From contig JADNRX010000221.1 of assembly GCA_015501595.1 (NCBI GenBank), positions 28,036 through 92,035 of the forward strand: a DNA stretch of 64,000 nucleotides, in the 5' to 3' direction. The DNA is from Hymenopellis radicata. Lineage: Eukaryota > Basidiomycota > Agaricomycetes > Agaricales > Physalacriaceae. Shown here piece after piece: positions 32,309-58,584 of this stretch. How positions within the stretch are numbered: position 1 is the first letter of the stretch; the number at the start of each line of letters is the position of its first letter. The notes under the pieces were generated by a model. That model was given only the letters and a program-made list of their open reading frames with translations, ran no database searches and was not told the origin of the DNA. A program made the translations under genes and the position numbers.

Positions 32309-34465
32309 ATGTCCTCGACCAAGCGCTTTCAGCCCAAAGACTTGCTTGCCAATCGGCCAAGATCAGACGGTGAGCTCAAATTTCAATATTTCATTTAGCC
32401 GTGCTCTACTGATTTTTTAGTTGAATTAAATGCGAATGACGGGCGCGTAGGCGCTCTCGCCCCCGACAGCTCCTATTTCATCACGTCTTTGATGGACGCC
32501 GCTAGTCTTCCCGCCCCACCTACAGGACACGTCCAAGTCTGCGCCGAGGGACACTTTGGCCTACATGACCCCACTCGTGCGCCACAATTCTATGATGAGC
32601 GCACGCCACACTTCGCCGTCTTCCCCACTCTTCCGACAGACGAATCCGACCCCTACTATCCTTACCGCTATATGTGGCAGATTCCGGGAGAGGACGACAT
32701 CACTTGGAACATTGGGGGGCTTAGCGGGGTGGGCCTGGTGAAACGTCAATTCTTCGTTCGTTGTCGGGCGGCTGTGAGGTGGGCGAATGAACGCGCCAAC
32801 ACGTACTACGACTCCGAACGGGAACGCGACCACCCCAACACAAAATACATCCATTTCCTCGACATGCGTCTCCCCCGTCTCAAACAATTTCTCTCTCGTT
32901 TGGAATTCGTCTCCAATAATCTCACCGCCATCCGCATCATGATGAACGGGCTATTCCGTCTCTGGTTGGATGTTTCGGCGAGTGTGGATTACATGACCAT
33001 GTACCAACCCGTCCTCCGCCACGAACGCGCCCTACACGATCTACCCACTCTCCCTCGCACCCTCGGCGTCTTCACTTCCGAACACCACGTAGTCGAAATG
33101 TTCTCCCTCACTCCCAACGTCCCCGTCTACTACACACGTGAACTCGACGAGTTCAATACTCAACGCATCCTCAAAGTCGTTTCTCTGCAGGACCCTCCAT
33201 CGTACACTGCTCCTCCTACCCCATTTCCCATCATCTTCTCTGGCCCGGGCGATGACCCCGCCAAATTGGGCTCACAAGTGCGTTTTCTGGATCGCTTCCT
33301 GCGCTTTCGATCGAGCGCTGTCGGTTTCACTCCTCTACCACCCACCATCACCGAGAACGCCGTGTCATCTTCTTCTTCTCTTGGTGCGCAACGTTCTACG
33401 AGCTCACTGAAGGCAGCGCGTGAGCAGGCGGCCAAGGTTCACAAGAAGAAGGCGAAGCCCAAAGGTGAGTATTTCCTATTTCTTCTTTTCTTCTATTCAC
33501 ATGTTTTCAGATCCGAATGCGCGCAATCTGTTTGAAGATGACGTGCGCGAACCGTACGCGCCTCCTCTTCACCCCGGCTGGCGTGGTATCAATCTCGAGC
33601 TGGAGACAGAGGCCGTTGAGGAGCGGCGGCGGCTCCAGCATCAACGCAGGGAGCCGCTACTCACCGCCAAATATATGCTCCCTCATCCTGGTCTCTTTCT
33701 TCGCAGTACCCTTGCTGATAACGTCCTCGCCGTCCTTCTCAATCAACTTCACCACATTTTTGACGCCCTCATTTACCGCATCAACTCTCTCCAATCCGAA
33801 GCCCCCCTGCTGGCGAGTAAGGAATGGAGGGATATCTTATTCCTTCCCCGTCAACGAGAGCTTGAAGATGGTCAGCACGCCACTCATCGTGCTGAAGCCC
33901 TCGCGAAGACAGCTGCATCGCTTGGTGAGGCCCTGTCATCTGGTGGTGTCTCCTTCTTGCCCGTGTGTCCCCTCCTCCTGGCGGTTTCGTGCTCCCACCT
34001 GTTGACAGCGGCCGCAAGTGGATCTGGTCTCTCTTCGAAATCAACTTTCGTTATGAGCTGATCATGCTCGATGATGCTGTGAGCGACCCTAAGGTTATGT
34101 TGTCTCGGATTGGTGCAGATTTGGATTCTCCGACTGAGGACGAGGAAGGCGCTGCTTACGAGGCTCGATATGCCGAGATCGTGAGTATTTTTCCTGAGGA
34201 ATCGTTTCTTCGGATCGATCCGTCTCAGTCATGCCAAGGACTTTGTTCGAAGGACTGGGCCCCTCGGGCAGAACGGTTGGAGAGGCTGCGTAGGGTGATG
34301 GGAATGTGGCCGAAGGTGGTGAAGCCGGCAATTCTGAAGGTTCCAATCAGCGCTCAAGAGTCGTCACAAGGTTTGGCACAAGAGCGGGCATTAGCTTTAC
34401 TATATGCACAGACATTTTACAATACGTTCGAGCGCCCCGCAATCCTTCCGCGTGCATGGTTGTAG
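32309..34465 (+). CDS. Transposon companion protein of unknown function (hAT copy)
   Basis: Three exons: 32309-32369, 32421-33464 and 33511-34465, with standard GT-AG introns. One frame change is needed near 33965 in a C-rich run (CCCCTCCTCC), so this copy is frameshifted or holds a base error; about 686 aa otherwise. No named domain was recognised. It is homologous to the gene at 56291-58584 in the Plavaka element. Matching blocks in the same order are GHFGLHDPTRAPQF (versus CYFGQDDPLLHPQF), a central helical region, WSLFEINFRYELIMLD (versus WELAEINFRWEVVSLD), and a C-terminus LYAQTFYNTFERPAILPR (versus LWYVDCFATVFNRAPIMPR). It lies head to head with the transposase, which suggests co-regulation. 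Confidence 0.75.
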
Positions 34466-34529
34466 TAAAAAAATTTGTATTTCTATCTCTTGGACATTTT
34501 GTATAATATTTTTTTTGGCATACTAACTG

Positions 34530-34690
34530 GCGAGTACTCGTGACGAGTCCGAAAGGTCTGAGACCTGAGTTCGAGACTCCTGTAAGACTCGAGTCGGCTA
34601 GGCTCGCGAGTCGAGTCGAATCCGAACTCCGAGATGCCCGAGACGAGCTGACTCACGAGTTACTCGCGGATTCGGCTGACTCGTGGTGGT
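34530..34690. repeat. Right subterminal ACTCG repeat cluster of the hAT element
   Basis: Mirror of the left cluster, with GAGTACTCGTGACGAGT, ACTCGAGTCGGC and GCGAGTCGAGTCG. Confidence 0.6.
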
Positions 34691-34873
34691 CTCTATATGG
34701 CGCTTTCGACGGTGTTACTGTCCGATAATGTGTTCAGCAGCGTACAGCGGATACATTTCGAGAAATGGACGGAGGGGATTGTTATCACAGACCTGAGGCA
34801 TCCGGAACTTGCCTCCAGGATACGGCATGCCTTACCGCGTCTTGACCGGAAGGGTGTTCTTTGCTTTTTGTAG

Positions 34874-35843
34874 GTGGCGTTTCCGGATTACGGCGAATAG
34901 GCGAGGCCTCTTCAGACTACAGAGTTATGTTGTTCTTTACTGTTCCAATTCGATAAACGTCAGTACGACAGGCTGCTTTTGTTAGCCACCGCGCAATAGT
35001 TTCAAAGGGAGGGACCTGGAGCGTGTGTGGGCCCTTCAACGCGTCTATTCAACCACAAGGCGCCTGTCGAAACAGCCATGCATTTTGCATAGCATAGTAG
35101 CACCTCGCGGTCTGTCACCTTCATCCGAATCATCGATGAACACAGGCCGTTAACTAGTTGAACCAATGACTGAGATGCGAGGCCATATGTATGGAGCATC
35201 CCATACTCTACGTATCTCAAAGCAATGGTAAGACTTAGGTACAACTCTTCTGGAAGCCCATATTATATTGCCCGCTATGTCTGTGGCGCAACGGTCGAGC
35301 GACAATGGTTCGGTCACGTGCGGTGACTGATCCGATGTCAGCCGTGAACGTGGTGTCGTCCTTCATTGATGCCACCACATACCGTCTTTCTGGATGACGT
35401 TCACGGGTGTTTCCCTGCCCAGGGATCCCAGTCTGGCGTATCATGATCTGCTGTCAACTCGCGCTGGCTGTTCCACTGCAATTCATTTCAAATAGGATGA
35501 AAACCAGCCTACCACGGGTCTACCCACATCCTCCTGATGTTGTTCTGATTGTGGAAACGTTTTTGCCCATCTTTGGCTAGACCCAAATGCGGAACAACGT
35601 TACTGGGAGGATATCAATACGGTAAGTATCGCGAGTCATCCCACTCACTCAAGCCGTGACCTATCAGCATCTTCACGCCGTGCAGCTCTGCGATACAGCA
35701 AGCAGATCGAATGCGCTTGAGCGCAAAACTTTCCGTGCGCGCTACCGATATCAATAGATTGAACTTGGATGCCATGGAAAATGCACTGATCATCATCATC
35801 AATTACAAAACTCCGACTCTCCCTTCAACGCCGTCACAACAAA
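34874..35843. other. Intergenic region with a segment duplicated at 38060-38530
   Basis: From about 35282 to 35640 the sequence matches 38060-38530, downstream of the helicase: CTGATCCGATGTCA, CATACCGTCTTTCTGGA, AAACGTTTTTGCCCATCTTTGG and AACAACGTTACTGG occur in order in both. A short conserved frame (VETFLPIFG, TQMRNNVTGRIS) lies in both copies. No complete gene is seen. The last about 40 bases before 35844 include the helicase 5' leader. Confidence 0.5.
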
Positions 35844-37446
<1,603 letters not shown>

Positions 37447-37772
37447 ACCCACATCGTGCACATTATTTCATCCTATATTCGATCACAGTGTGGTGTATAC
37501 AGTAGCGTTTCTCTCTCTCTAGCTGATGAATGTTTGTAACTGGTGACTTGTTGACTTCTCTGTCACTTTCCGCAGACAACGTGAGGCTTCTCTCTTTCAC
37601 CACGCACGCAGGTTGAGTTAAATCTAGGCGGAATTTCTCTTATATTATTCTCGGTGGACATACTACTTATGTTTGCGGCGCGGCATTTTCCTTTGACATT
37701 TGTGGCAGCACTAGGTCTTCTGACGCGCTCAAGGACTCGCTGTATGGAAGCTTCCAAGCAGATTTCAAAATG
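37447..37772. other. 3' flank of the helicase gene
   Basis: Contains the presumed helicase 3' UTR. Nothing else was recognised. Confidence 0.4.
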
Positions 37773-38021
37773 TACTGTACGATTTCGACCGACCGTTCAG
37801 TTACGGGTTACGGCACCCCGGTGAACTGAACACTTCTGGGCCGAGTTACGGTTACGAAGCCCTGAACAGTCCAAATTAGGCAATTTTTCCCGCCCTGCGG
37901 GGCTCCCGACACGACCGACTTTCCTTTTATAGGCGGTTGTGCCTGAACTGAACACTTTGATTTGCGAATCAAGCCGTTACGGGTTACACCCCCCTGAACG
38001 GTCGGTCGAAATAGTACAGTA
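37773..38021. mobile_element. MITE, 249 bp, TACTGTA-ended (copy 1)
   Basis: Inverted ends: TACTGTACGATTTCGACCGA on the left, and reading inward from the right TACTGTACTATTTCGACCGA. The outer TA at each side could be a target duplication, which with CTGTA termini fits a Tc1/mariner-type non-autonomous element. No coding potential. The ends match those of 51077-51333 and 42128-42365, while the interiors differ. Confidence 0.75.
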
Positions 38022-38536
38022 CGTGATGGTGGACCCTTACGCCCGGATCCTGTTCTCTGTGTGGCGCAGCGGCACGTCCCACGGCAATCGCCTGATCACG
38101 TGCTGATGACTGATCCGATGTCAACGGTTACCCTGAGCGCGGTATCATTTTCCACCATTGCCGTCACACATACCGTCTATGTGGACGACGTTGCTCTGTC
38201 CAGGGGGGCCCAGTCTCGTATCACATCCTCGTTAGTACGAAAACCTGCCTTGTTCACCCCATGCGGGTATAGGCGGGTATGCGTCCATTGAGGCCATACA
38301 TACCGTCTTTCTGGAGTCTGGCGTATCGTGTTCTGCTGTCAATCAGCGCCCACTGCAATTCATCCCAAATCGGATGAAAACCAGCCTTGTTCACCACCAC
38401 GGGTCTACCCACATCGTCCTGATGTTGTTCTGATCGTGGAAACGTTTTTGCCCATCTTTGGCGAGACCCAAATGCGGAACAACGTTACTGGCAGGATATC
38501 AATACTGTATCGCGATTCATCCCCCTCATTTTCTCC
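38022..38536. repeat. Duplicated segment, second copy, upstream of the DUF6535 gene
   Basis: From about 38060 to 38530 this matches 35282-35640 in order and orientation (see that entry). It ends next to the start codon at 38537, so it would serve as promoter and leader of the DUF6535 gene. Orientation is direct and the helicase lies between the copies. Confidence 0.6.
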
Positions 38537-41500
38537 ATGCCATCTTCTACTAGCCCCCGCCGGAAGACGGGACGTCGCCTTTCTGGTGCACGTAGGCTGC
38601 CGTTGAGCGACGATACTACTTCCGCTGATGGCTCTGACACCAGTCGAAGCAGTACTCCAGCTCAGCCGGAGGCGCATTCCCAGGACGTACGCCTACGACT
38701 TCAGGTCTCGAACAAGCGTAAACATAGAAAGCGCAAAGGCATGGGGTTGACTAGCAAACCCTCCCGCGTCGAGAGAGGTATGTCTTCGAAGATTTAGTCC
38801 GGCCAATAATTAATCTACGCCACGCAGGAAACGACGTGTTTGACTATGAACAGAAGTTTGCGGAAGACGATCCTTTCAAGGAGATGGGACCCATGGCGCG
38901 GGTCTGGAAGACGTTTTTGGAGGAGTACGCCAAGTTCGATAGCGATAGAGTTGAGGACTGGAGAGACGCGTTGGACGTTTTGCTAGTTTTCGTGAGTCGT
39001 CCCTAAACATCTTGAATGCCATGTTGATAGTTGCTTAAAGGCTGGTCTATTCTCTGCGGTTGTTTCGACCTTTGTTACGCAGACTTCCCCCAATCTACAG
39101 GTCGACTACAATCAGGTCACTGCCTATATAGTGTACGACATGCTTCGTCTTCACCAAGCGATGATGGACGGTCTTCCGTCCAGTTCCGTCACCTCCTCAG
39201 GCATCACTCCGACCTCTCCCGTGAATGCCTCACGAACGGACGCTTGGGTCAACGTACTCTGGTTCACGAGTTTGGCGTTGAGTTTGACAACAGCCTTGAT
39301 GGCTGTACTCGTCAAGCAGTGGATCCACCAATATATGGCTGTTCCCTCGGGTACCCCCTGCGACCGTAGTCGCATTCGCCAGTTCAGGTTCGAAAACATT
39401 GATGCATGGCATGTCCCCCTCATCATCGGTATTCTTCCTGTCCTCATGCATGTTGCATTGGGTGTATTCTTCTTCGGTCTAGTCATCCACGTCCGTGCTC
39501 TCAGTACCCCCGGCGCCGTGTTGGTGGGCGTCATCGGTTTTGTTGCTTTTGTTGCCTATTTTGGCACAACTCTTCTACCTCTCTTTAAACCGGACTGTCC
39601 GTACAAGACCTATTTGACTCTTTATTCCTACTCCATCACCGCCTACCTTTGCATGTCCGCGCGTCGCAGTCACCTTCGAGTGTGGATCCACTCCCACTTT
39701 CACACCATTCGCCGGTACTTTGTATCTCAACCGGCGGTTACCCAAGACAAGGCAGCCAGTAATGGCCCCTCTGCTGCCACCTGGCTGAGGTCTCTTAGAG
39801 ACGTCGAAAAGCAGACTGTCGCGAGCATCGCGGAAGCCCTTGACGCGCGTGCTCTAGTCGGGTTATACAACATTTCCTCCAATACATCAGTGCAGAGGAT
39901 CGTTCTGCAAGCCTTGAGCGCTGTACCGCTTGATCTACTTTCCGTCGTGAAACTGGGTATTCCCGACGTCGCCGAGAGAATCCGGTCGTTGGTAGAATCG
40001 ATGGAGTTCACAGCACCAGAGAAGCAGACAGCTTATGAACGTCTCTACCGTGCGCATGTTCGTATCGAGCCTGCAGTGCCAAAGCTTGTGCCTCCAAATG
40101 TCCTGACACCTACCCTCGAGCTCGTCGTTAGACCTCCCAATGCTTTGTCTCTGCTTGTCGATCGCAGACATCCTGAACATGCCATTTGGTTCTTGCGCCA
40201 CCAGATCACTCTTACAGATTCATACCAATCATTTGATGTCCTCGTGTGGGCACGAATTTTGCAGAATGCCTTGTCAGCTGGTATCGAATGGCTCGACGTG
40301 GGTGACAATGATTCGCGCGTTTGGTCAAAGTTCCTGCCTTGGCTCATCCAAACCATGGATGTCTGGCCCCCACGGCCTGTGACACGTCTTGCACGGAGCT
40401 CCTTTCCTTGCCTCTATTCATCGAGGACGGTGACGACGATTTCGGGAGTCTGGATCCAAAGAATTTCAGATTGAAAGTGCGGAAATACCCCAGGTTGGAT
40501 ACCGCACGGCCGATTGAGTTGCGTGGGCAATGACGCTCCTAATGCGTCCATCTATTGCTGCGTACTTCTTCCACGTACTCTTCCCCACACCTGTCGCGGC
40601 GATGACTATACGGGCCTGCCAGCCGATATCCTTCTCAATCTCGCGTTGGTCCAAACTCATCATGTATTACTTACCAGCAAATCCGGTGTTGCGAACGATG
40701 AGGATGAGGACGAGGAACAGCCTGCTTTTAGTCCTGCGGGCATCGTTGTCCCCGTCAAACATAAGACGCCTGTGGCCAAGCTTCTCTACTTCATTAGAAG
40801 ATATGTCGGTGTCATCAAGGACATTTGTAACGTTCCTGGAGGGACGCTGCGGCAACATCCTGCTGTAATCAGAGCGACCTTCCATGCCTTAAGCAGTATC
40901 ATCAGTTCCGACGTCTTCCTGGATGGTACTCTCGCATCAAGCGATAAGCGAAAGATGCTACATGCTCTGGCACGAACATTCATCCTGGACACATCGCCCA
41001 ACCGAGAGCTTTTCTGCGAGTTTTGCAATGTGATATCGACAGACATCCTCCGGCAGATTTCGATAGTCGTGTTTCGTGACTTTCCTCGCCTGAAGGGCTC
41101 TCTCGAGTTGGCGATTGAACTTTTGGATGCACACAACGAAGTTGAGCCCGCCCGTATCCCCTCCAATTCTTTGGGAATTGAGCTCTACAGTCAACTGACT
41201 CAGCGAGACTGGCTGATTGAGTTCCACGAGACGCTTCGTGAATCGCGCGCTCGGACAGGCATAGATATGCAAATCTTCCGGTTATACTTCTTCCTGGCCA
41301 CCTCGTACGTGGAGGGACTAAAAAGCGCTACGTGTATCATCGCCTTCGACATTCAAGCAAACGGTGGCATACTTGAAGAAATCTGACAACCTTGTCATGC
41401 TTTGCAAGATTTTAGTTCTGTCCGATGACAGTCGGCGCGCCGAGCTCGAAGACCTTGCGTTCTTATTTTCCGGAGTGGCATTGGCAGCTCTGTATTCATG

Positions 41501-43764: not shown

Positions 43765-44985
43765 TCATCGACACCGCTCACGTTTGTCCGTGGTCATCCA
43801 GCGGATTAACGTCCTTTTCCAAGGTGTACTCGTCGATGTAGGACTGCAAAGACGTGATCTCTGAACTCGAGATGAGAGAAAAATCACGGAATTACTTGAA
43901 GAATACGTACCAGTGAGCACACGATTCGGATGGTGGGTTTCCCTTCCTGGCCACGAACCAAATATTTCCTTTCCCCTCAGAGCCATCTAGCAAAATCTCG
44001 CGAGTACATCCCTCGTATCCGTATCCGTATCCGTACCCGCAAGCCACGACCATCATCATACGGAGCTCGCTCTTCACCACCGTCCTTTAGATCCGCAAGA
44101 CCGCTGGTCCATGTCGTTCAAAACGCGCTTGGGGTTGTTGATGCCATGCCAAGCAAGAGAAAGTTTGTTCAGTATGCGCAAATGAGCGGTAATGACGTCG
44201 CACAATGTATCGGCTGGCTCTGGCTTGGTGTGAAGCCGGCGCAGAAAGTAAGGGGAAAAGTAGCCATCTCGGCGGACGTGCTGGTCGAGGTGCTTTAGTA
44301 GGATTGACAGGACTGGGTCCGCCACTTGCGTCGTATGCATGGGGATACGGCTGGAAGATGTGATGGACGGAATATACATATGCGTCATTCCGACGTTCCT
44401 TTTGTGAATTGAATGAGGTTGTCGTTGTGGAAGCGAGGTTTGAACATCCGGTGTGTCGGTTCGCAGAGGCTAAAGGTACGGATTGGCTGAAATCGTTCAC
44501 GCGGGATGGAGAACACATACTAGGTATATTTCGCGTCGCTGGAAGGAAAAGAAGATCGTCGGGCATAGAGCTTTGAAGGGCGATTAAGTGTTTACACAGA
44601 TTGTCAGTGAGCGGCAGGTTAATAGCGCTCAACACTTGGCAGCTGAGAATGGTGCTGAATAGGGCAACTGGAGGTAATATTAGCATAGACCTACCTTGGT
44701 AATGCGAACGCCCACTTGAACCCAAATTCTAGCCAATTCCTTCTTAGCCGGGCCTGGGACGTCTCGGGAAAGGGTAACCATACCGCGTTGTTCTTGATTC
44801 GCATGGGTAAAACTTCTCATCATTTTCAAAAGATGGTATTGTCCTGTCTGAATACAAGGCCACTGTCGACAAAGCGGCGTATGCGAGAGAAAGCGAGCAC
44901 GGGCGTACGCATAGGCGTTCTTTTGCCGGTAAAGTCGTCCACGGTCCTCCTGGACATGGCCACAATCAGCACCACGCGCTTCGGT
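43765..44985 (-). pseudogene. Decayed repeat unit X, distant copy E (minus strand)
   Basis: Read on the minus strand this matches unit X copy D (22580-23560), with the same order of landmarks: GGCCTTGTATTCAGACAGGAC, CAAGAACAACGCGGTATGG, CTTTCCCGAGACGTCCCAGG, ATCTTCCAGCCGTATCCC and CACCTCGACCAGCACGTCCG. The best conserved frame near 44300-43940 reads LLKHLDQHVRRDGYF, ILNKLSLAWHGINNP and ELRMMMVVACGYGYGY, more intact than in copy D, so this copy gives the best view of the ancestral protein. No F-box gene lies beside it. The family is unrecognised. Confidence 0.4.
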
Positions 44986-45467
44986 ATTGCTGAGGCCGGC
45001 AGGCGAGTGAATTGCCGCGCGAGAACGACGAAAATGACGCGCGTAAGTCCATTTTAGCCCAGATTGAACCAAGCTAAGTCATCCACAATGAGTCCAAGAA
45101 GAGAGAGGAAGAAGGAGAGAGCACAAGATGCGAAACATATCTTGTGGGTTTGGGGGAGAGGTCTCCGCTGGCGTTGAGAGAGAGTCGGGACAAAGCAGTC
45201 AGAGAAGGGGAAAGGGAAACCGGACGGTCACGTGCCGGATATCCAGACTGCGATGTCGACCCGATGAAGAAGCCAGCAAGCGGAGAACTCTGGTGCAGGC
45301 TGGAGGAACCACACTGGTCCAACCAACCACCCCGGAGTGTCAGCTCCCAACAGGTGGATGAGTGTGGCATCCAACCCCCAAACCCAAGATGACACGAGGA
45401 ACCTTTCTTAAGCACAAGTTTAAGCGTGCAAAACGATATATGATAGTGGCCGAGCGAGTACAGTAGG
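44986..45467. other. Intergenic stretch, nothing recognised
   Basis: Frames present are short and overlapping. It may include the right terminal region of the DIRS-like element, but split direct repeats were not found by eye. Confidence 0.35.
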
Positions 45468-46778
45468 CTAATTACGAGTAATGCGAATATCTTTGGGAAT
45501 CTTCTGGGAAATACGAAAGTCCTCTAATTTCTGGTTGATTTCTGAAATGCGGTCTGAACTGTAAGAGCGAGTAATCATGGTTGGAATAAGATCCTCTAAC
45601 TTGCGCCAATAAATGAGAAAGGCTAGCGACTTCCAGCGTCCTAGCTTAGCCACCGTCTCCGGGGGAACACCACCCATCAACAATTCAGTTGCTCCTCCGG
45701 GACGAAAGCTGTGTCCGTGGATAAAGTCCAGGTCGTGATGTTTCCATATTTCGCGACAACGCCCCAAGAACCAGTCCTTGGTCATGGGCAGCCAGGATCC
45801 ATCAGCTGACAGGAATGCGAAGAGCGGCGCCTCCTTGGGAACTTCTTCATTGAAGGATAAGTGACGGCGGAGGGCCTCCACCGGACAGAGAGAAGGGCGC
45901 GACATGAACGTGAGATCGGCACCGAGTTGACGTTCCATCTTTGCCCACGGAATATGAACATGCGCCGACTCAGCACCACCTTGATGGGAACGGAAATTGA
46001 TGGAGGCGGATCGGGAGACGTGGAGGCGCGCGCTGAAGGCATTCCGAGAAGGGATTGTAAGTTCTCCTAGTCTGCAGCAACCCCAGAATGCGCATAACGC
46101 GACGGCGAAGACTGCCACATCGAACGTGTTAGTATGGCACAACCCATCTTGAAGTGCGATGAGATGTTCAATGGTCACCGGGCGACGTTGAGGACGAGGA
46201 GAGCGTGGGATCGCCTTCGAAGCAGATTTCTTGATGAGCGAGATGAACTTATCACCGCCGTGCCAGTCCGCCTTGTTAACTGTGTGCCAGGCATGGATGC
46301 CGGTGAGCCAGTCGGCAATACGATCACCGGGAGCAGCACGTTCGGTGTGAGCCCATCCCACGAAGGCCTGGGACAACTTAGCAAGATAGAAGAGTGGTAG
46401 AAGTAAGAAGCTCACCGCGAGAAGAAGAGATGATGCAGGCATGCGCGCGGATTCTGGAATCTCACGCGCATCACAAAATTGATGAAAACGGAGGACACCA
46501 GCCCCATAAGAAATTCGAGTCGATTCTTCTAAAGCGTTGCGAGCAAGATCAAGGACGGCAGCTGCGTCCGTCGGGTAATCAGAGAATAAAGTAGAGTCAA
46601 AAGAGAGCGAATAAGGAGAAGTCCAGCAGAATATGCGGTCTCCTGCGGAGACGGGGGGTCGATGATCAGAAGGAGCGATTTCGCAACCGGCTTTGGGTTT
46701 GCGAACTTTCTTTTTGCTGGTGGGTAGACGCGGAGGAGCGGAGGAAGTTGATGGTTCCTGCTCCCTACCCCCAGACAC
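45468..46778 (-). CDS. Tyrosine recombinase of the DIRS-like element, 436 aa
   Basis: Open from ATG at 46778 to the stop at 45468. The N-terminal SAM-like half contains STRISYGAGVLRFHQFC and LTGIHAWH. The catalytic half shows the first arginine in GCCRLGEL, the HxxR box in GHSFRPGG, and then LGRWKSLAFLIYWR with a downstream tyrosine as nucleophile candidate. This is the enzyme that inserts the circular DNA copy of DIRS elements. A 48-bp in-frame intron (GTGAGC...TCCCAG, about 46420-46373) may be removed, joining SSLLLA to AFVGWAH. It is the only undamaged gene of the element. Confidence 0.82.
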   Translation of the reverse strand: MSGGREQEPSTSSAPPRLPTSKKKVRKPKAGCEIAPSDHRPPVSAGDRIFCWTSPYSLSFDSTLFSDYPTDAAAVLDLARNALEESTRISYGAGVLRFHQFCDAREIPESARMPASSLLLAVSFLLLPLFYLAKLSQAFVGWAHTERAAPGDRIADWLTGIHAWHTVNKADWHGGDKFISLIKKSASKAIPRSPRPQRRPVTIEHLIALQDGLCHTNTFDVAVFAVALCAFWGCCRLGELTIPSRNAFSARLHVSRSASINFRSHQGGAESAHVHIPWAKMERQLGADLTFMSRPSLCPVEALRRHLSFNEEVPKEAPLFAFLSADGSWLPMTKDWFLGRCREIWKHHDLDFIHGHSFRPGGATELLMGGVPPETVAKLGRWKSLAFLIYWRKLEDLIPTMITRSYSSDRISEINQKLEDFRISQKIPKDIRITRN

Positions 46779-48058
46779 GGATGCATGGTGCGACGCTGAT
46801 AAACGGTGGAATCTGTAAGGCTGAGAGTAAGTGTCTGATCACAAGGTAAGAAAGAAGGTCCCACCTAAACATAACGGGCAATGAAAGGTTGAAGCTCCTC
46901 AGGGAGCACAAAAGGAGAGTCCAAGCGGAGCTCCGACCGACCTACATCTCCGCGTGAGATGGGATCTGCCAGGTTCTTGGCTGATTCAATATAGGAAAGG
47001 GAAAGATGAATGTTGCGAGTGTGGAGAAGCGCCTGGCTGCGCTGGATGGAGTTATTGATAGCGAGATTGGGACTGCGACCTTTGCCAAAGGCTCCGATCA
47101 CGCCTTGGTTATCCGAATTGACGAGGATAGAGGCGTTCCCGAAGTCCATGCCCTCTAGAATGTACAGCAGTAGCTCGACTGCAAGAGTCTCGAGCCATCC
47201 AATATGGTGGTCTCTGGGGCGGTTGAACGAAGTAATAATCCACGCGTCCCAACGCCCGTTAATAATGATGCCGATTCCCCACTCTGTTGATGCATCGACG
47301 AAGATGTCGAGATCAACGCGAGGAGGAGCCGGAGAAAGGGAGCGAAAGACGTCGGGCTTGGCCAGTTCTCGTTCCCATCACTTCATGTCACTAATAAGCG
47401 ACGTGGAGGTGTGACGCCTGGCTCCACGCTTCGTGACATCAAAGGCGGAAGAGAATCTAAAAAGACGAGGGAGACGAGAGCGACCTTGAGGGTAAACAAA
47501 GCAGATGTGGACAAGGGTGCCCTGGAGGGTAAGGACTGCGTCGAGTGGCGCGGGAGCATGAGAGTAAGAGTTGACGAAAGATTCCAACCTGCGCAGGTAC
47601 TTTAGTCTCTTCTCCTCGGGGAGGCGGACCGTCGACGACTGCAGGCACCAGAGGAAACCAATGTAGGTAAAAAGGAAGGCAAAGTCCGTCCACTTGTCCT
47701 TGTGCCAAGGAATGCACAAAGAGTCAAGCAACGCCTTCGCCGACTTCATGGTGTAAGGATATAGGAAGTTCCCGTTGGCGTCCAAGCCAAGCGCGCGACG
47801 GAAAATTGCCAGGTCGTCAACCCACTTGACGCCCGGCTCCACCTTCTTCACCGCCCAAATGTCCATAGAGGCGTTCGCGATAGAACCCGCGTTGCTCTCT
47901 GATGAGCGGCATCCGAAGGGGCAACAGTGTTCAATGTAGAAGCCTTTCGATCCCTGCACGACGAAGTAAGGCTTGTGCGCGGGTAAGATAGGACAGGTTC
48001 GGTGAAATTTAGCAATGTCGAGGGTCATGGCTTGCGTTCCCGGAGGTGCAGTCGCAAT

Positions 48059-49710
48059 CTGGTAAGAGGGTAAGTGTCATGCAAGACAGGTAAGAAAAGA
48101 GCAAGTAAGATGAAGGGTAAGAGGAGTAAGAGTAAGAGTAAGGGTAAGAGTAAGAAGTAAGGGTAAGAGGTAAGACCCAGAGGGTAGAAGAAGAGTACAC
48201 CGCCAACGGTCGGTCACCCGGAGTCAACCTGACGATCGCATGCAGTCAGGGTAAAAATATCACACGTCACCAGGATGACCGTCACCCGTCAGAAATGTTA
48301 GGGAGCCAATGGATCCATGCTGAGCACAGGTTACCTGGCTACTACCTGGACAATCGGTCTGGCTCTCAGCTATGTAGACACATGTTGTCAGTATATACCT
48401 CAAATGTTATTGACTCGAATATTATCACACATGAAGAAGATGTCAAAACATATTGATTTGGCTACTACAGCTGTTCCCGAAAACTTTGTCTTATACAGAT
48501 ACAAGAAAATGCAGATGCATTGGTAGACAACACAAATTATAATGGAAAACAGAACGGCGGACTAGCCATCATCAATACATTGCCCCAGCAACATCAACAT
48601 CATACGTCTGAGTGCCGTCGTTGATTTTGTGCTCGTAGGCACATCGTCGTGCTCGGTGTCATGCTCGCCATCGTGCTCAGTGTTGTGCTTGTCATCGTGG
48701 ACATTGCTGTGGGTCGTTGTCGTGGCTGTCGTCGTGGGTCATGGTTGTGGTCATTGTCACTGTTGTGGCTTCTTGCGGCGCTCGTATTCGCGGTGGCTCA
48801 GCGTGCTCGTGTTCGTGGTGGCGCGGCGTACTCGTGTTCGCGGTGGCGCGGCGTACTCGTGTTCGCGGTGGCGCGGTGTACTCGTGTTCGCGGTGTGCTC
48901 GTGTTCGCAGTGCGTGCTCGTGTTCGCGGTGTGCTCGTCATTGTCGTGGCTTCTTGCGGTGCTCGTGTTCACGGTGGCTCGGCGTGCTCGTGTTCGTGGT
49001 GGCGCGGCGTACTCGTGTTCGCAGTGCGTGCTCGTGTTCACCATTGTCGTGGCTTCTTGCGGTGCTCGTGTTCGCGGCGGCTCGGTGTGCTCGTGTTCGT
49101 GGTCGTCGTTGTCTTGCGGTCAGTTAGAGGTTCCTCAGCATTCGTGGTAGGGGCCGGTCCTAGGCCGGTCCTCGTCCTCGGTGGTGCTGGTGCTTGAATG
49201 GGGCATGGTCTTGGTGTCGTCCTGGGTGTAGCGAGGCGCGACAGTGTCGGAGAAGGTGGAAGAAGGTTAAGAGGGGTGATCGCAGAACTTGCCAAATTCG
49301 GAATTTTGGTTGCGCGCGCACGGACCATGTGATCGGAGTGTACCTTGCACGTAACTTGAAGTCCAACTTAGAGCGGGATGCTTTCTACCATTCAGATTAT
49401 CATTTCCTACACTTTTCTCAGATATAATAATAATTAATCACTCTTACAAACAAACAAATCTACAGCAGATTCACGCCAGGAACAAATGAAGCAATAAAAT
49501 GAACTTGCTGGAATTGATGAATTTGAGCCAGGTGGAGCTCACAATCTCTCCACCTCGCCACCAGGTTTGCGTGAACAACCTGGTGATTGCCTGACCGCCA
49601 GCCGTCCATCAGAACCGGCGGCAGGATTCGATCACCTGCCTAATCCGGCTGACTTCCGCCTACCAGCACTTTGGCGGTGTAAGGAGGGTAAGGCGAGGTG
49701 CGAGACTTAC
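48059..49710 (-). other. Intron-like 1652-bp interruption of the reverse transcriptase
   Basis: On the minus strand the coding sequence stops at GACATT, followed by the perfect donor GTAAGTCTC, and resumes after TCTTACCAG with ATTGCGACT. Removing the segment keeps the reading frame and the expected spacing (ADI then IATAPPGTQ). The interior has no coding value: it holds a (GTAAGA)n-like run at 48105-48180 and a GC-rich minisatellite at 48640-49130. A nested insertion with a 3-bp target duplication (ATT) is an alternative that would leave the protein one residue shorter. Confidence 0.6.
48640..49130. repeat. GC-rich minisatellite
   Basis: Head-to-tail imperfect copies built around GTACTCGTGTTCGCGGTGGC and GTGCTCGTGTTCG. 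The unit lacks stop codons in all three plus frames, so three long overlapping frames (173, 182 and 136 codons) arise from repetition alone. Confidence 0.7.
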
Positions 49711-50615
49711 AATGTCCGCCACCTCGGTCGCAGAGCCGAAGCGCGTAGGAAAGTTCTTAGTATCGATGTAGTCGTTCGTGGCCGGGTGGTCCTTATCCCG
49801 TTTCGATAAGTTCCGGACCACCCTAGGCTTCGCCTGGTCCTCGTTCACCGACATCGGAGAACACTGAAAAGGACCCAGGATCGCCTCCACCTCCTCGCGT
49901 GTATACGGGCCCGACATCCGACCCGCCACCACCTCCTCGTCCAAGTAAGAATCAATAAAAGCTGTATGTTCAGGAGTCGTCGCGTAATTCGGGAAGATGA
50001 CAGTTTCAGTAAGAGGAGGGAAATCGCCCATAGGGAAGCCATTGCGTAGTTTGTGAACAAGATCGGGATGCGAAGAGGTGAGATTCGTTTCTGCAAGCAT
50101 GGATTCGAAAGCGTCTGCGTTGTAAGGGGTGACTATGCGATTGAGAATTTCTGGAGCAGCCGAGACGAAAGCAGGGAGAGGTTCAGGTGGGGCGGTTCCT
50201 GCACCTCCAAGCGAAGGCGTGATGATCGGCGCTTCCGCAGAAGGAGCAGACATGAAGGAGGGTGGAGGCGGAGGGGTGGGTACACTTCTTGATGGCTGCC
50301 GCGACGAGGTTCCAACCGATGCAGATGAAGTCGGCTCCTCCGGCTCGGGGACGCATTCCTTTATCGGCGAGGACTGCGAAAGTGGGCTTGCCATCCTCGA
50401 AGGAACTGTAGGTGCAGTTCTGGATCCTGTGTCCCTTTCTCGCGCAGATGAGGCAGGTCGACTCTCTCGCCGTGTTCGAGTTTTCCGCGCGAAATGAAGA
50501 ACTGGACCCCCGAAACCGAGAGCCCGAGGAACCAGAAGCAGCAGAGTCTAGGCGGCGACGCTCGGCAGCCTCCCTCTGGGCCTTCTCGCGAGCAGCCGCC
50601 TCTTTTTCCCGCTCC

Positions 50616-51076: not shown

Positions 51077-51333
51077 TACTGTACCGTTTCGACCCCAAGT
51101 TCGCATAACGCGTAACGCGGGGTCGAGAACCTAACTTACAATAAAGCATAATGCATCACGGTCCTTATTTTCAGGGTCCGTAAGGCCTAAAAAGGAAATT
51201 TTCGCTCCCGCCTACGGCGGGAGCATCCAAATATGGTAATTTCGGGTGGTGTGCCTGGTTACGAACTTATTTCCTGTAAGTTCGCGGCATAACGCGTAAC
51301 GCCCCGCGAACTTATGGTCGAAACGGTACAGTA
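51077..51333. mobile_element. MITE, 257 bp, TACTGTA-ended (copy 2), inside gag
   Basis: Left end TACTGTACCGTTTCGACC; right end read inward TACTGTACCGTTTCGACC, a perfect 18-bp match, both followed by an AAGTTCGC-like segment. The interior contains a CGCATAACGCGTAACGC repeat on both sides. Possible TA target duplication. It lies 48 bp from the hAT-type MITE. Confidence 0.8.
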
Positions 51334-52264
51334 AAGCGGGCGCGAGAAGGCAAAAGGCTGGGTCCGGTACTGCTTCCGAAGCCTGATATCCGCGCGGAGG
51401 TAAGCCTTGAAATTCCTCTACACGTCCTCTTTCAGGATGAAGAAGTCGAAATGCTTGATCCAGCGCTCTGAAAAGGAAGCGTCACCCGTCTTTGCGATGA
51501 ATTCAAGGAAAAAATGGATCGCATCGCGCCACTCGGCTTCCCCGAGGTCCTCCTCCTTCCCAAACGCGTCCAACGAGACGTCCATCACGTATACGTTCTT
51601 CTCGTTGGCTCTCATGCCCAACTTCCTCTTCGTGATCGCGTCGCCCTCGGACCAGATAAACTTGCGATTCTTCGCCGTGAAGAGGTGGATAGGAACGTAC
51701 TGGCCATGTTTGGCCAGCATGAAGAGTTCCGGATGTACATCAGACGCGGCGCGAACCGCGCCTGGTTCTCTGTCCACTTCTCCCTCGGTAGAACGCAATT
51801 TTCATCTTCTTCGCGGCAGAAAGCGGCGACTCCGGCTCGTCTGGTGTCTGTCTCTTCGAAGAGCCCGTCAGAAAAGAAGTAAAAGACTTTAAAGTGCCAG
51901 GCGAGAAGTCCATAACACGCTTCATGACGGAGCCTGGAGAGAGCTGGCTGTCGGCTTCGCGAGCTTCGGGACTCGGCGGGCGCGACGGATTCCCGTGCAC
52001 GTTCTCCGTGGACAACAGAGATTCGAGAGAGGAAAGAGGATCAGGCTCAGCTTGAGTGTCCTGCGACGTCGACGGCTCCGAACGAGCAGCCCGCCGCGAC
52101 AAGTGCTTATCCCACTTCTCCATGTTCCTGCCCAGAGCGAAAGCGTTCGCAGCCCTCTTCTTGAGCAACGAGAGCGACATCCATCCCGGCGTGTTCGTCC
52201 TCGTCTTACCCGGCCTGAGCTTCGGGTGTGTCGACGTGCGGCCTTGAGGTAAAATTCCGGTCAT

Positions 52265-52962
52265 TTTGATGGTTGATAATGAGAACGATATGCGTGTCGT
52301 AACGCGTGTCTTGACTGATGAGTGCGAAAAGTATGTCGACCGACGAGGCTGGTAGAGCGAGGATGGGAGTTTGGGGAAGAAAGAGAGAAGCTGTCACAAC
52401 GCGATGGGGTAGGACGAATCTGGCATTACTATATACGGACATGTATGCTACCCAAAGAGGGACAAGTTCTTTCCTTAGCTTGGCCCTGCGCTCGTTTTGC
52501 AGGAGCTCGTTCCTCGCTCCTGAACGAGCGGTCCAGGTAGCTTGGGAGATTAAACAGAATCTCCGGAAGCTCGGGCCGCGCTTGCCCATCATCCGTTTGA
52601 TCAACCCGCTTTTGGCTTCCGACCGCCATCAGCCTCCACGCTAAATTCAAAAGTATCTGTCGGCATAGAGAGTAATCCACGGAGCTAGATATTCTGCAAC
52701 TAGTTTCGAACGGGTCCTTACTGAGGCGAGTAAAGAGCGTTCGCGCCCCCGACTCTTCTCGATCGTTCTCAAGTACTCTGTATGTCTTTCCGAATTCACC
52801 TTATATCTGAACTTGAAAGCATCCAGGCGACGAGTCTTGCTATTTCTATTTCCCTCAGATTACCGGCACTCAATACCCCACATAGTTTGGTAAGGTTCAA
52901 AGGTACCCATTTAAATAATGCCAGCTAGTAATCCACACCTTCAAAGGCTACCTTCTGGTCTA
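52265..52962. other. Stretch between the DIRS-like element and an F-box fragment
   Basis: Probably includes the upstream terminal region of the DIRS-like element and the F-box promoter. No gene is supported. Confidence 0.35.
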
Positions 52963-53064
52963 ATGAACGGGCCTGTTTTGCCCCCAGAGCTCGTGGAGTT
53001 GATCGTACAACATCTCTGGGATCATCATACACTCCAAAGCTGCGCGCTCACATCTGGAAAGGCC
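52963..53064 (+). pseudogene. F-box-like gene start, truncated by a Plavaka transposon
   Basis: ATG at 52963 begins the family N-terminus (NGPVLPPELVELIVQHL, then LQSCALTSGK), closest in wording to the copy at 1-165. The match stops at about 53058, exactly where the Plavaka terminal repeat starts; the frame then runs through transposon sequence to TAA at 53089-53091. The rest of the gene, if present, lies beyond the right edge of the window. Confidence 0.75.
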
Positions 53065-53224
53065 TATATGCGTTTAGACGACTTAGGATAACTTAAAGCT
53101 CTTAAAGGCCGCAAAAGCCAGAAGGCTACAAAGTTACTTTCGGAGAAGGTTATCAGAGACACATACTCTAAGTCACTTCAAGACATCTCAACTCACTCTC
53201 AAAGCCATCAAAAAGCTCTCTCAA

Positions 53225-53694
53225 GTTAGCATAAAGCATACGTCTCTGATAACCTTCTCCAAAGTTGATTTACAGATGCTTTTATATCGCCTTCCAACTG
53301 CCTTCTAATCATCTTACAGTTAGCATAAAGCATACGTCTCTGATAACCTTCTCCAAAGTTGATTAACAGGTGCTCTTGTATTGCCTTCCGACTGCCTTCC
53401 AACCGTCTTACAGTTAGCATAAAGCATACGTCTCCGATAACCTTCTCCAAAGTTGATTAACAGGTGCTCTTGTATTGCCTTCCGACTGCCTTCCAACCGT
53501 CTTACAGTTAGCATAAAGCATACGTCTCCGATAACCTTCTCCAAAGTTGATTAACAGGTGCTCTTGTATTGCCTTCCGACTGCTTTACAACTGTCTTACA
53601 GTTAGCATAAAGCATACGTCTCCGATAACCTTCTCCAAAGTTGATTTACAGGTGCTTTTGTATCGCCTTCTAACTGCCTTCCGACCACCTTCTG
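53225..53694. repeat. 94-bp tandem array, five units
   Basis: Units start at 53225, 53319, 53413, 53507 and 53601, each beginning GTTAGCATAAAGCATACGTC and containing GATAACCTTCTCCAAAGTTG. The spacing is exactly 94 bp throughout. An inverted piece of the same unit (GAGAAGGTTATCAGAGAC) lies at about 53144. It is in the left subterminal zone, so it may bind transposase. Confidence 0.85.
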
Positions 53695-53925
53695 ACCGTC
53701 TTCCAACGGCCTTCTCACCGTCTTCCCACTGCCTTCTCAGTGTCTTCCAACCATCTTCTCACCGTCTTCTGATCACCTTCTCACCGTCTTCTGACTGCCT
53801 TCTCTCTGTCTTCCAACCATCTTCTGAGTCTCTGCCGACTGCCTTGCCACTGTCTTCCAACTGCCTTGCTACTGTCTTCTGACCACCTTCTCACCATCTT
53901 CCAATCATCCTCTAACAGCCTTTCA
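53660..53925. repeat. Short degenerate repeats (ACCGTCTTC type)
   Basis: About 265 bp of roughly 11-bp imperfect units, such as ACCGTCTTCC, ACTGCCTTCT and ACCATCTTCT, directly following the 94-bp array and derived from the end of its unit. The plus frame stays open through it without being a gene. Confidence 0.7.
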
Positions 53926-54197
53926 GTCAGCTTTATAGCAGCTTTCGATAGACTTAGAAGGATCTCAAAGACAACTTAAGACAGACCTTAAGCATTACAA
54001 AAAAAATAAATAATAAAATCAAAACCACTTATAATCATCCCAAATGAGAAAGACACAAAAGATTGAATTGCACGGGACTACTTAGAACTATCTAAGATGC
54101 TTGAAAAAGCAATTAATGATGATGATAGTGCTAAAGGTAATGGACTAGTAGTATGCAACATGAAAACAGACAGAGAAGGTGGCACAAGCCAAAGGAA

Positions 54198-55907
54198 CTA
54201 CTTCGAAACAGACTGCTCAAGGGCAGCAAAGTCTAGAGAACCAATGACATCAGAGACCACATTCTCGAGAAGGAAGGTTTTGTTGGTGTGAATGCTAGGA
54301 CACCCCAAAAATGTCAGAAAGCAAACTCAAAGTAAAGAAGAACTCACAGCATATGCTTGAAGAGCTCAGACTGTAAGTTGGCCATGTAAAGGGGTGCCTG
54401 TTGCTGGACATGTTCAACACCTGCGAGATGATGCAGGTACCGAACCGCAGCATCCTCCTTGAAGTCAGCCGTACGGTGTGTCCCATCCCTCCATTCGTTG
54501 ATACAGTGCTCTATCTAATCATTACATCAGAGTCCAGACCTTCATCTCAAAGAGGAAACTCACCGCCGTCATGGTTAAGGCCATAAAGACCAGAGGAACC
54601 TTCTGGACCTCGATCAGGAACCTAAAGGTCTCCGAGTTGGCCTTTCCCTTGCCCTCCATGAACAGGGTCCGGGGAATGGCCTCGAAGAAAGCAGCACCAA
54701 AGGGTTGGGCCCGATCAAAGGTCTGTGTCTGCACGAAGCATCAGTAGGGGAGAAAACAACACCAGAAGAACTCACAAGAATGTTGAAGCCACCGAATTTC
54801 CAAGCCTCATTCTTGACCATCCACGTTACCACATCGACGATCTGGGCGGGCTTCATGGTGCCGGGGAGGCCCAACGAACTGAGCTCCTTGCGGCCCGTGG
54901 CAATGAGCGTGTGGATGAACCCACCCCGAGCATACATGATCTGAACCTACGATCAGCAATAGACAGAGACTTCTGCGAGAAACTCACCCAAGTGGTGAGG
55001 CGCTGCCACTTCTCGGGCATGCGCTTGAGACGATTGTACGTCTCCAGAAAGTCGGTCTCGGCGGCCCGCTCCTCGGCAACGCGCTGCATGATCCCCTCGA
55101 CATGAGGAACACGGTTGAGGGTGCCCGGGTACGGGTTGCTCATGGCCGTCACCAAGACCAGTTCCTTCTTGACTGCCGTGCCGAAACGCACTGACGCAGG
55201 GGAAATCTGCGCCCTGGTAACCTTGGCGCTTTTGGCCGGCGCCAAGCCGTCAGAACCCGCACCGTCGTCAGCAGCACCGCGACCACACTTCCTCGTGCGC
55301 TTGACGGGAGTGGCAAAGGGATCGTCCTCAGCCACGACCTAAGGGATTTGCCATAGTGAGCTCAATGAACAGAAAATCTGCGAGAACTTAACACGTACAA
55401 TGTCGTCGGACGAGGCGTCGTAGTCGATCGGGTCGCTCGACGCGATTGGGAGCTCATCGCCGTCGTCGAAGTCAGAAGGGGGCAGGTCATCATGCTCCCC
55501 TTCCTCGTTGTCATTGTCGTCGTCCTGGACGGACATAATAGGAGCTGCAAACATCAGTAAACGAAGATCTATCCAGACAATGACGAACCAACATGTCCGG
55601 CCTCCAGCGTGGCCTCGTCCGGGTCGTCCGCCTGCTCCGCGCTGCGAATGTCGTCGTTGCGCGCCAAGATGGCACGATGTTCGGCCTCTTTCGCTGAAAC
55701 AGAGCTCATCAGTATACCGCGGCAGTGCATACGCTAAAACTGACCCAATGCGCGCTTGCGATGATCCGAGCGCTGCTTGTTGCGGGCAACGAGGGCGGCG
55801 CGGGCGGTGGCGGTGACGTGCTCACGCGTGGGGCCAGTGGCAGACGAGGCGCGCGACGTGCGCGAGGCAACACCGCTGGTCTTGACTGTGCGCGCGACAA
55901 CAGGCAT
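54198..55907 (-). CDS. DUF6532-like protein, 8 exons, 452 aa
   Basis: Exons: 55907-55745, 55693-55589, 55544-55399, 55338-54988, 54940-54776, 54728-54564, 54514-54348, 54294-54198; 1359 nt with consistent phases. The N-terminus is basic and Ala/Arg-rich (SRTSRASSATGPT), then acidic (DDDNDNEEGEHDD), then a basic KRTRKCGR stretch. The C-terminal half (about residues 225-450) resembles the DUF6532 domain: FGAAFFEAIPRTLFMEGKG, a hydrophobic PLVFMALTMTA helix, then INEWRDGTHRTADFKED and YLHHLAGVE. DUF6532 proteins are numerous in Agaricomycetes and of unknown function. Here the gene lies inside a transposon, downstream of and parallel to the companion gene. Confidence 0.65.
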
Positions 55908-56290
55908 GAGGACTATGACAATAACTAAGGAAAAGAGACAGGATGAGTGCAGAAATGAACGGAAGAGATGGGTGGAGAGAGAACAGAAATAAGCTCATGT
56001 TATATACCATTTTGGGTCAGGGTTGGAGCCAAGTCCCACGCACGGGCCAACGCGCACGGACCACTTGCCTTTCTCGAACCGATCACACACCAATTCGGAT
56101 AGCCAAAATATACATTTTATTTTTTGCGGCGGGGGCGAGCTAGAGAATGCGATATATCACTGCTAAAGTAGTCAGTAAGAGCGAAAAAAATGAATAACTG
56201 AGCACTTACAATCCCAAATGTAAAGTACAACTAAAACTGCTGAAGTTCTTAGCTGAGGGAAGCGAGAACGGTTGCCACATTAACTTACAG

Positions 56291-58584
56291 TCACGTAAAC
56301 CGACGACGAGGCATGATGGGAGCACGGTTGAACACTGTCGCGAAGCAGTCAACATACCAAAGGGCAATGAGATACTCCGTGTGGTCCATATCGAGCCCCG
56401 ATAGGAGCCGACCTTCGTTGAGGACCTTATCCAACCTATTGCCAGCCTCGCGAGTATCCCTCGGCATGGATTTAATCGACAGCGACCAGCCCTTCATGAT
56501 GAAGAAGAGTCCGCGAACAGCTAGATGTCGCTCATGTAGGTCGCTCGATGCAAAGCCGATGTTGTGTTCCTGGACTTCGTTGGGAACAATTGACCCGCCA
56601 CAATACGCTAAGGCCGTCGAAAGAATTGCCGCCTCTCGATCTAAGCGCGTCGTGGCATCAAATTCCTCCCAGTCATCGCGTTCACCGAGTTCCTCCTCGT
56701 CGACGTTCAACGCCCGTTCCATCTTGAGAGTATACAGGATCGAGTCGAGGGACACAACCTCCCAGCGGAAATTGATCTCGGCGAGTTCCCACAAGATTGG
56801 CCGCACAACCACGGGGGCAAGAGGATAGTCGGGCTTGAAGAGTTTGACACGTCGGTTGTGCCACTTGACCGGTTGGGTCTTCCAGTTGAACATGTCCAAA
56901 CCGCCCTATTCCGCAGTCAGCCTTGAAGTAAGCGAGAAAAGAAAGAAAAACATACTTCCTTCATTCCTGCTTGCAGACATTTATTAACGAGCGCCTGCAT
57001 GTCTTCACGATTCTGCGCAGCCTTGGTGCCGGGGGTCGTACTCGTATGGGTATCCAATGTCAGCAGCGATCGCCACTGTTTGGGTATCAAAACATCGAAC
57101 TGATGACTTGTAACGCGATACAGCAGGATGTTCCACAGCTTGCACAATGAACGGAGCTGCCCCGCCACTGTTTCCTCGTCGCGCGGACTGACGATGGCAT
57201 TAGGATCGGGCAGGCAGTATCCAGTATGAGCGCCCCTCCAAGGCTCGCGACTTTGATGAACGATCTGCTTCCTGCCGACCTGCTTCATCGCAGCCGCCCA
57301 GGTTGGAATGGCGGGGGGGAGCAATTGAGAAGCGACATCAACAAACTTATCGCGGTGGGGCTGGGACTGTTTTTGGGGTGAATTTTTACTCGGTTTTGGA
57401 GGTAGCTGTGGAGAGCGTCCGGAAGTCGGGGCGTCTGAAAAACATGAATGAGCAAAGGAAAGAAATACCGTTAAGTAAGAAGAACTGACATGGTGAAGAG
57501 CGGCGCTGCTTATCAGTTCTGTGAACACCGACATTTTGAGATGACGAGGATGAGGAGGCGGTGGCCGGGCTCGATGGAGATGTAGCGGCGTGTGCAGGTA
57601 ATGGGCGTGCCAGGACAGATGACGCATACGAGGACATTTGGGAGTCGATGAAGTCATGCATAGCGCGGTAACGGTCAAGATTACAGGCGTCACCTCGGAA
57701 GATGGTACGATGGGCTGGCTGAGCATCGTCCCACTCAGTGGCCGTAATCCAACGAGGGCGCGGAGGCGGGACAGTTGCATCTAGCCACACAGTGGATGCT
57801 ACGCCCGCCTTGCGATTGAGAGGTCGAATCAGCCAAAAAGGGATCCGACACTGAAACACATGATTAGACAATACAATACAATCCAAAAAGTAGAAAGACT
57901 TACACGGTGCAGATTTTCCGCCACAGTCAGGTCAAGTGTCAAGGCCCCAACAACACATAAGGCCTCAGCACGGTCCTGCGTCGGCGTTGAATCATAGTAG
58001 TTGTGGCGGACGGAAGTCAACCAGGTCATGCGAGCTCGGAGCTCCAAAGCGATGCGACAAGTGTGGCGAAAGGTGGATACAGCTTCAACGAATGAGGCGA
58101 CGAGATCAAGGCGTTTCATAAAATAACGGAGGCGGTTCCCCAACGTTGTCAAGACCCGATCCGTTGCTAACCGCTTGTTTTCCGACTTGGAGAGCTCGTC
58201 GCGGACACTGCGGAGGAGTTTGTGTGCAGCGTCAAATAGGCGCTCGCGCCAGCACTTCCTGATCTGCCCGACGTTCTGCGCGGTGGATTCGCTGTCGGTT
58301 TCAAAGTCATCGGGGAGCTCGGGGGTATACCAGAAGACCCAATATTCATCTGTGGTAGGGTCAAGGACGGGCTGGGTGATGCAACATAGGTGGGGGACAC
58401 GGGGGTTGAAGAATTGGGGATGGAGGAGGGGGTCGTCCTGGCCAAAGTAACAGTTGTTCCGCAGACGAACGTCCCGAGGGCCCAAGAGGAGATCATCGGG
58501 GATGTAGGTGGCGTTCGGGGTGGTTACGAAAACGTCTTCTTGGGCGAATACGCGGGCCAATTCGCCTTCGAACGAGTTTGGCAT
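56291..58584 (-). CDS. Transposon companion protein of unknown function (Plavaka copy)
   Basis: Four exons: 58584-57904, 57850-57490, 57434-56956, 56905-56291; 2136 nt, 711 aa, no stop. The start chosen is the ATG before PNSFEGELARVF; an in-frame ATG at 58677 is possible. No named domain was recognised. Homologous to the hAT-borne gene at 32309-34465 over its whole length, with CYFGQDDPLLHPQFF, NRLRYFMKRLDLVASFVEAV, a low-complexity Ser/Pro centre, LWELAEINFRWEVVSLD and a C-terminal LWYVDCFATVFNR. This copy is undamaged. It is head to head with the Plavaka transposase across 1.6 kb, mirroring the hAT arrangement. Confidence 0.8.

Follow-up and report, generated by a model that had tools for sequence, protein, structure and literature searches.

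A companion gene placed head-to-head with the transposase genes of unrelated hAT and Plavaka elements in Hymenopellis radicata

Results

Two transposons in one window carry related companion genes

The window analysed here is a stretch of 64,000 nucleotides from the genome of the agaric fungus Hymenopellis radicata (positions 28036-92035 of contig C543, which has 92,035 bases, GenBank JADNRX010000221.1; genome of 75.5 Mb in 1,405 contigs). It contains two DNA transposons, one of the hAT and one of the Plavaka superfamily, each of which has beside its transposase gene a second gene, hereafter referred to as the companion. A preceding sequence-only reading had proposed that the two companions belong to one accessory protein family. 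Both genes, when spliced from the sequence, lie at the coordinates and on the strands it had given; its length for the Plavaka companion (711 aa) was reproduced, whereas the hAT companion has 671 aa and not about 690. The features of the hAT element, including its terminal inverted repeat (TIR) and target-site duplication (TSD), are as follows, in window coordinates.

27746..34695: hAT element, 6,950 bp; TIR TAGAGA(T/C)CACCACGAGT
27738..27745: left 8-bp TSD TATGGCGC, perfect repeat flanking the element
28084..31164, minus strand: hAT transposase gene; several introns, C-terminal dimerisation domain; spliced by eye from frames
31165..32308: gap of about 1.1 kb, from gene starts, separating the divergent start codons (shared upstream region)
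32309..34465, plus strand: hAT companion gene; exons 32309-32369, 32421-33464, 33511-33964 and 34009-34465; 671 aa
34696..34703: right 8-bp TSD TATGGCGC, perfect repeat flanking the element

The features of the Plavaka element are listed in the same manner.

53065..53079: probable left TIR TATATGCGTTTAGAC; 14 bp by script, one base added by eye
54198..55907, minus strand: second accessory gene, DUF6532 (PF20149, E=4.6e-18); ends read by eye
56291..58584, minus strand: Plavaka companion gene; exons 58584-57904, 57850-57490, 57434-56956 and 56905-56291; 711 aa
60221..63454, plus strand: Plavaka transposase gene; PF18759 core, E=5.5e-84; weak zinc-finger match at its start; exon borders approximate
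63986..64000: probable right TIR; last 15 bases of the contig

The identities of the two elements, as read initially, were borne out by Pfam, with the PF18759 match listed above and a PF05699 match of the spliced hAT transposase (E=1.1e-9, 38.4 bits against a cut-off of 21.4). So was the head-to-head arrangement: the hAT transposase runs leftwards from 31164 and its companion rightwards from 32309, and the Plavaka companion runs leftwards from 58584 and its transposase rightwards from 60221. The hAT element has the short TIR TAGAGAYCACCACGAGT, matching at both ends, and contains at least the transposase and the companion. The companion is located inside a hAT element in two independent insertions, the other being a diverged second copy at C752:85520-92745, which has the same two genes and its own perfect duplication, AACAAGAT.

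The corresponding records in the nr database are annotated as 'hypothetical protein' of H. radicata. Both companions are 100% identical to them over the shared part, and the records start at other codons (627 aa for the hAT companion and 759 aa for the Plavaka companion). The gene model of the window copy has a third intron of 44 nt at a place where two close relatives of the hAT companion, P0002 and P0003, read on without interruption. Because of this read-through, the window copy probably has a small frameshift near 33960-34010, and the third 'intron', which is also in the NCBI protein model, may only bridge it.

The two companions belong to one protein family without a named relative

The pairwise alignment of the two companion proteins contained all three colinear blocks quoted in the sequence-only reading. 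The pair scored 80 bits in BLASTP (E=1e-19, 23% identity over 697 columns) and 51 bits in phmmer, against a best score of 5.2 bits among 2,000 shuffled sequences. Profile-profile alignment with hhalign, comparing six hAT-A-type proteins with five others, gave a probability of 99.95% and E=1.4e-38 over 623 columns. These sequence comparisons show the two companions to be homologues along almost all of their length.

One protein of each kind was modelled with AlphaFold. The mean predicted local distance difference test (pLDDT) values were 74.7 and 72.3, and the predicted template modelling (pTM) scores 0.67 and 0.50; for the second protein, pLDDT spread from 52.7 to 72.3 among its five models. 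When the secondary-structure lists were compared by eye (coordinates were not compared), the order of elements was broadly alike: both models begin with a portion that contains strands, continue with long helices and a small alpha/beta region, and have a C-terminal half made of helices that follows a disordered linker. The linker, which joins the two halves, is rich in lysine and arginine, as judged by eye.

The suggestion that the family may be undescribed held within the searches made. Foldseek searches with the companion models returned nothing significant, and NCBIfam, PADLOC and the PDB sequences gave no match. A Pfam scan of both companions returned no family at E<=0.1, Tet_JBP included; among 59 members and fragments, the only Pfam match at E<=0.01 was DUF7435 in one fragment (E=0.0063), which is at chance level. 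The open literature, where searched, contained no description of the protein. Protein searches found ten relatives, all from Hymenopellis, Mucidula or Lentinula; since each search scored about 8,000 candidates, this host range is a lower bound.

The companion gene is under purifying selection. The ratio of non-synonymous to synonymous substitution rates (dN/dS) was 0.11-0.41 in 17 of 18 exon comparisons, the remaining pair having no synonymous change. Two C-terminal comparisons of Plavaka companions gave 0.20 and 0.17, and comparison of the window hAT companion with that of C752 gave 0.15-0.17 at a dS of 1.4-1.6, near saturation. Companions in units lacking a transposase, described below, had values of 0.14-0.41. 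The low dN/dS shows that the protein is maintained, in the transposase-less units as well.

Companions lie head-to-head with hAT and Plavaka transposases across the genome

Exon-level searches with three companions, merged into loci by hand, identified 44 companion loci on 36 contigs. This number is a lower bound, with 63 of 127 and 69 of 136 candidates scored in two of the searches. For comparison we used 59 hAT places (PF05699, 70 rows), 34 Plavaka places (PF18759, 73 rows), 29 tnp2 places (43 rows) and 109 KDZ places (PF18758, from 150 of 166 rows). Several rows at one place counted as a single place, and those Plavaka rows that overlapped a tnp2 gene were excluded from the set for Plavaka.

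Nine companion loci had their nearest hAT match within 8 kb, and all nine were head-to-head; the corresponding figures were 5 of 7 for Plavaka, 0 of 4 for tnp2 and, among the matches listed, 0 of 2 for KDZ. In 5,000 trials, we then gave each companion a random position on its own contig, with its strand kept, using the contig ends where these were known (26 of 36 contigs) and otherwise the highest coordinate seen. The observed head-to-head count was reached in none of the 5,000 trials for hAT and in one for Plavaka. Proximity to hAT irrespective of orientation was less striking, with seven companions within 5 kb against 4.1 expected (237 of 5,000 trials as high). Neither the window hAT gene nor that of C752 is among the listed PF05699 matches, because their exons split the domain. 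Together with these two, the 14 loci having a hAT partner within 8 kb or a Plavaka partner within 12 kb bring the head-to-head loci to 16 of 44. Further possible hAT cases are C643:14388 and C631.

Two other partners were considered and set aside. Two companions lay within 8 kb of a KDZ match, as against 2.1 expected, and neither was head-to-head among the matches listed. At C653:21500-27600 (L050) a Crypton-like gene (GCR1_C, E=7.4e-15; NDC10_II, E=3.2e-6) is head-to-head with a companion; a companion was near only one of 12 GCR1_C matches, and this case may be due to chance. At two loci sharing a 3.9-kb block of 81.5% identity (C716 and C669; L033 and L034), a WD-repeat-like gene, with a DCAF12 propeller match under the cut-off, is head-to-head with a companion. 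Contig C643 also has two short elements, each with termini like those of hAT and with a perfect 8-bp duplication, at 16899-18691 (GTCGAGAA) and 19282-20420 (AGCGAGAC) (L043 and L049), which are probably non-autonomous hAT copies.

The pairing of companion and transposon has changed

Five loci (C574, C683, C556, C175 and C797) form a family termed hAT-B. Their companion segments are mostly 91-100% identical to the C574 query, lower-identity rows existing of which some cross introns or frames, and the companion-to-hAT-domain spacing is 3,947-3,963 bp in four loci and 3,360 bp in the fifth. The hAT-B loci are probably recent copies of one element. In the phylogenetic trees, the hAT-B companion joined a Lentinula protein (support 99/99) and not the hAT-A companions; it also grouped, less firmly, with the transposase-less group (92/96 and 88/93). 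An approximately unbiased (AU) test rejected a single clade of hAT-A and hAT-B companions (p=0.0048), as it did when the possible third hAT companion, C643:14388, was added (p=0.018). The grouping for this test was chosen after the first tree had been seen, and the C643:14388 and hAT-A branches are long. Rejection of the joint clade means that the companion-transposon pairing has changed at least once.

The companion looks optional in Plavaka elements

The genes found in the Plavaka element of the window are DUF6532, the companion and the transposase. Plavaka elements are marked by target duplications of 2-3 bp and by termini of the type TGT..ACA or CATCA..TGATG (PMC12730594); the 15-bp inverted repeat TATATGCGTTTAGAC, the probable terminus here, is of neither published type. 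The contig ends exactly at the probable right repeat, perhaps an assembly break at a repeat. Inside the left end, at 53224-53686, lies a tandem array with a 94-bp unit (4.9 copies, 94% matches).

A genome census of DUF6532, again by exon-level search, gave ten loci (12 rows) and missed the window copy. Eight of the ten had a PF18759 match on the same contig, and none lay within 20 kb of any PF05699 match listed. Five loci (C515, C715, C485, C501 and C464) had DUF6532, Plavaka and companion, and four Plavaka-DUF6532 loci (C645, C829, C563 and C488) had no detected companion. The gap separating DUF6532 from the transposase was 1.8-5.4 kb at loci without a companion, as compared with 4.7-15.5 kb at those with one (C543, C715, C464, C501 and C485); at C829, whose gap is 5.4 kb, an undetected companion could still fit. 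Because of the four loci with none detected, the companion looks like an optional addition placed between DUF6532 and the Plavaka transposase. In the literature searched, DUF6532 occurs in one paper, within a list of domains (PMC8955403).

One group of companions recurs in short units

About 11 companion loci form one group by DNA similarity, and at the loci that were read the borders of homology recur about 2.9 kb apart. In C1019, two copies match over 2,916 bp at 99.4% and their flanks differ. The ends of these units have no convincing TIR or TSD and, by eye, contain repeats of a CGACTACAAGTCG-like motif. Eight contigs have a close tnp2 match, and the group is present on four of them (p=3e-8 taking all 1,405 contigs and 1.4e-5 for an assumed 300), these contigs having been chosen after the data were seen. 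Within 8 kb of companions, tnp2 was not enriched (4 against 3.2) and its orientation was inconsistent. Given the CGACTACAAGTCG-like end repeats and the tnp2 contigs that carry the group, the units may belong to larger CACTA-like elements.

Discussion

We consider it likely that the companion is a mobile accessory module, encoding a largely helical protein in two parts whose family has no name, and that unrelated transposon lineages, at least hAT and Plavaka, have paired it head-to-head with their transposases, with at least one change of partner. The data establish homology, location inside elements, repeated head-to-head pairing, incongruence and purifying selection. The proposal that a single accessory family has been recruited by, or moves between, unrelated DNA transposons is supported by the profile alignment, the census, the hAT TSDs and the tree.

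Several observations weigh against this interpretation. A head-to-head hAT or Plavaka partner (within 12 kb) was not established for 28 of the 44 companion loci, some of which are fragments and some near contig ends, so that the situation regarded beforehand as damaging to the proposal, with matches mostly far from transposases, partly obtains. The permutation counts copies of the same family as independent, and only about five to six element families underlie the counts. At the loci read, no transposase was seen inside the 2.9-kb units. As the contig ends at the right repeat of the Plavaka element, its true end and target duplication are unreadable. Finally, the companion has no catalytic motif or known fold that points to anti-silencing.

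As to function, we tentatively favour, from the anatomy of the gene and its elements, a host-side aid against silencing. The companion would act in the nucleus and on the host side, instead of on the element ends, and would keep the shared promoter region and the element open against silencing, in a mode resembling the one proposed for TET/JBP (PMC12730594). The divergent layout suggests co-expression with the transposase from a common region, and the basic linker, noted by eye, suggests the nucleus. That the gene is used by elements whose ends and enzymes differ speaks against a terminus-specific role; a protein dependent on a single set of terminal repeats could hardly be exchanged between such elements. 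Since Plavaka elements seem able to do without the gene, a strict requirement for it in transposition is less likely. Sharing by unrelated elements suggests a trait useful enough to pass among mobile elements. A wider version, about which we are doubtful, would have the family traded among hAT, Plavaka, CACTA-like (tnp2) and perhaps Crypton elements in Agaricales and spreading in transposase-less units too, as a general counter-defence against host silencing that is independent of transposase chemistry.

The companion might instead be a direct cofactor of transposition, which binds either the transposase or DNA of the element and without which the element does not excise or integrate, in analogy to TnpA of Spm, MURB of MuDR and the Myb-like ORF1 of Harbinger. 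Its location inside the element, its divergent layout with the transposase and the purifying selection would all fit such a role. We nevertheless regard it as rather unlikely, because one family serves elements that differ in TIRs and transposases, because no companion was detected close to many of the hAT and Plavaka matches in the genome, and because some companions are in units where no transposase was seen. Those same units raise the alternative of a selfish companion gene that moves on its own in short units and was captured secondarily by hAT, Plavaka and perhaps CACTA-like or Crypton elements, as the C1019 copies with their different flanks and the similar borders at other loci would suggest; the lack of a convincing TIR or TSD, ends that look like subterminal repeats of a larger element, and the presence of the group on half of the contigs with close tnp2 make this improbable.

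It is quite improbable that the companions are a host gene family captured over and over by transduplication, as passengers that do nothing for the transposon. The multi-exon structure and the many loci without an established partner are compatible with such a history, which is opposed by the low dN/dS and by the head-to-head orientation at every locus having a hAT match within 8 kb. That the genes are chance neighbours in transposon-rich regions we hold to be extremely unlikely. Although the assembly is a draft with clustered repeats, and hAT proximity irrespective of orientation only mildly exceeds the within-contig expectation, chance is contradicted by the two TSD-bounded hAT copies, the near-constant hAT-B spacing and the failure of all permutations to reach the hAT head-to-head count.

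The closest precedent for the companion is TET/JBP: the gene sharing works in the same way and the protein is different. TET/JBP dioxygenase genes are reported from eleven lineages of DNA transposons in fungi, among them hAT and Plavaka, and were passed between superfamilies without termini of their own (Kojima 2025, PMC12730594); they are the clear fungal case of an accessory gene common to unrelated DNA transposons. The companion is likewise one accessory family common to such transposons, including hAT and Plavaka. Unlike TET/JBP, it has no Tet_JBP match in Pfam. Its models, which consist mainly of helices and include a small alpha/beta part, may also differ from the double-stranded beta-helix fold of TET/JBP. 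The order and orientation of TET/JBP genes vary by family (PMC12730594), whereas the companion is head-to-head with every hAT match within 8 kb. In the H. radicata genome, an exon-by-exon search, which may miss genes, gave three Tet_JBP matches, all under the Pfam cut-off and none on a companion contig; such scarcity would fit a different answer to the same problem and does not show it. DUF6532 is an accessory gene in the same Plavaka element as the companion but a different protein.

Elements having a transposase and a second, non-transposase protein, as here, are familiar. Two-gene DNA transposons include Spm (TnpA/TnpD), MuDR (MURA/MURB) and Harbinger (Myb-like ORF1), whose second proteins are, to our knowledge, each specific to one superfamily. 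VANC of the plant VANDAL/Mutator elements is a transposon-encoded helper thought to counter host silencing. It resembles the proposed companion in being a helper against silencing and is set apart by being, as far as we know, confined to one superfamily and acting on its own family's motifs. If our interpretation is true, a second, unrelated protein is shared in the same way as TET/JBP; this would be a sign that unrelated elements meet one common pressure, probably host silencing, through shared genes. The companion also provides an uncharacterised family whose genetic context is defined and for which predictions can be tested.

Other features of the window

To the right of the hAT element, at 36051-36809, a frame resembles, by eye, an eIF4A-type DEAD-box helicase. 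An apparently DIRS-like element occupies 44000-50600 on the minus strand; it has frames resembling, by eye, a reverse transcriptase (47378-48076) and an RNase H (46865-47377), as well as a tyrosine recombinase (45468-46838; PF00589, E=3e-5, under the cut-off).

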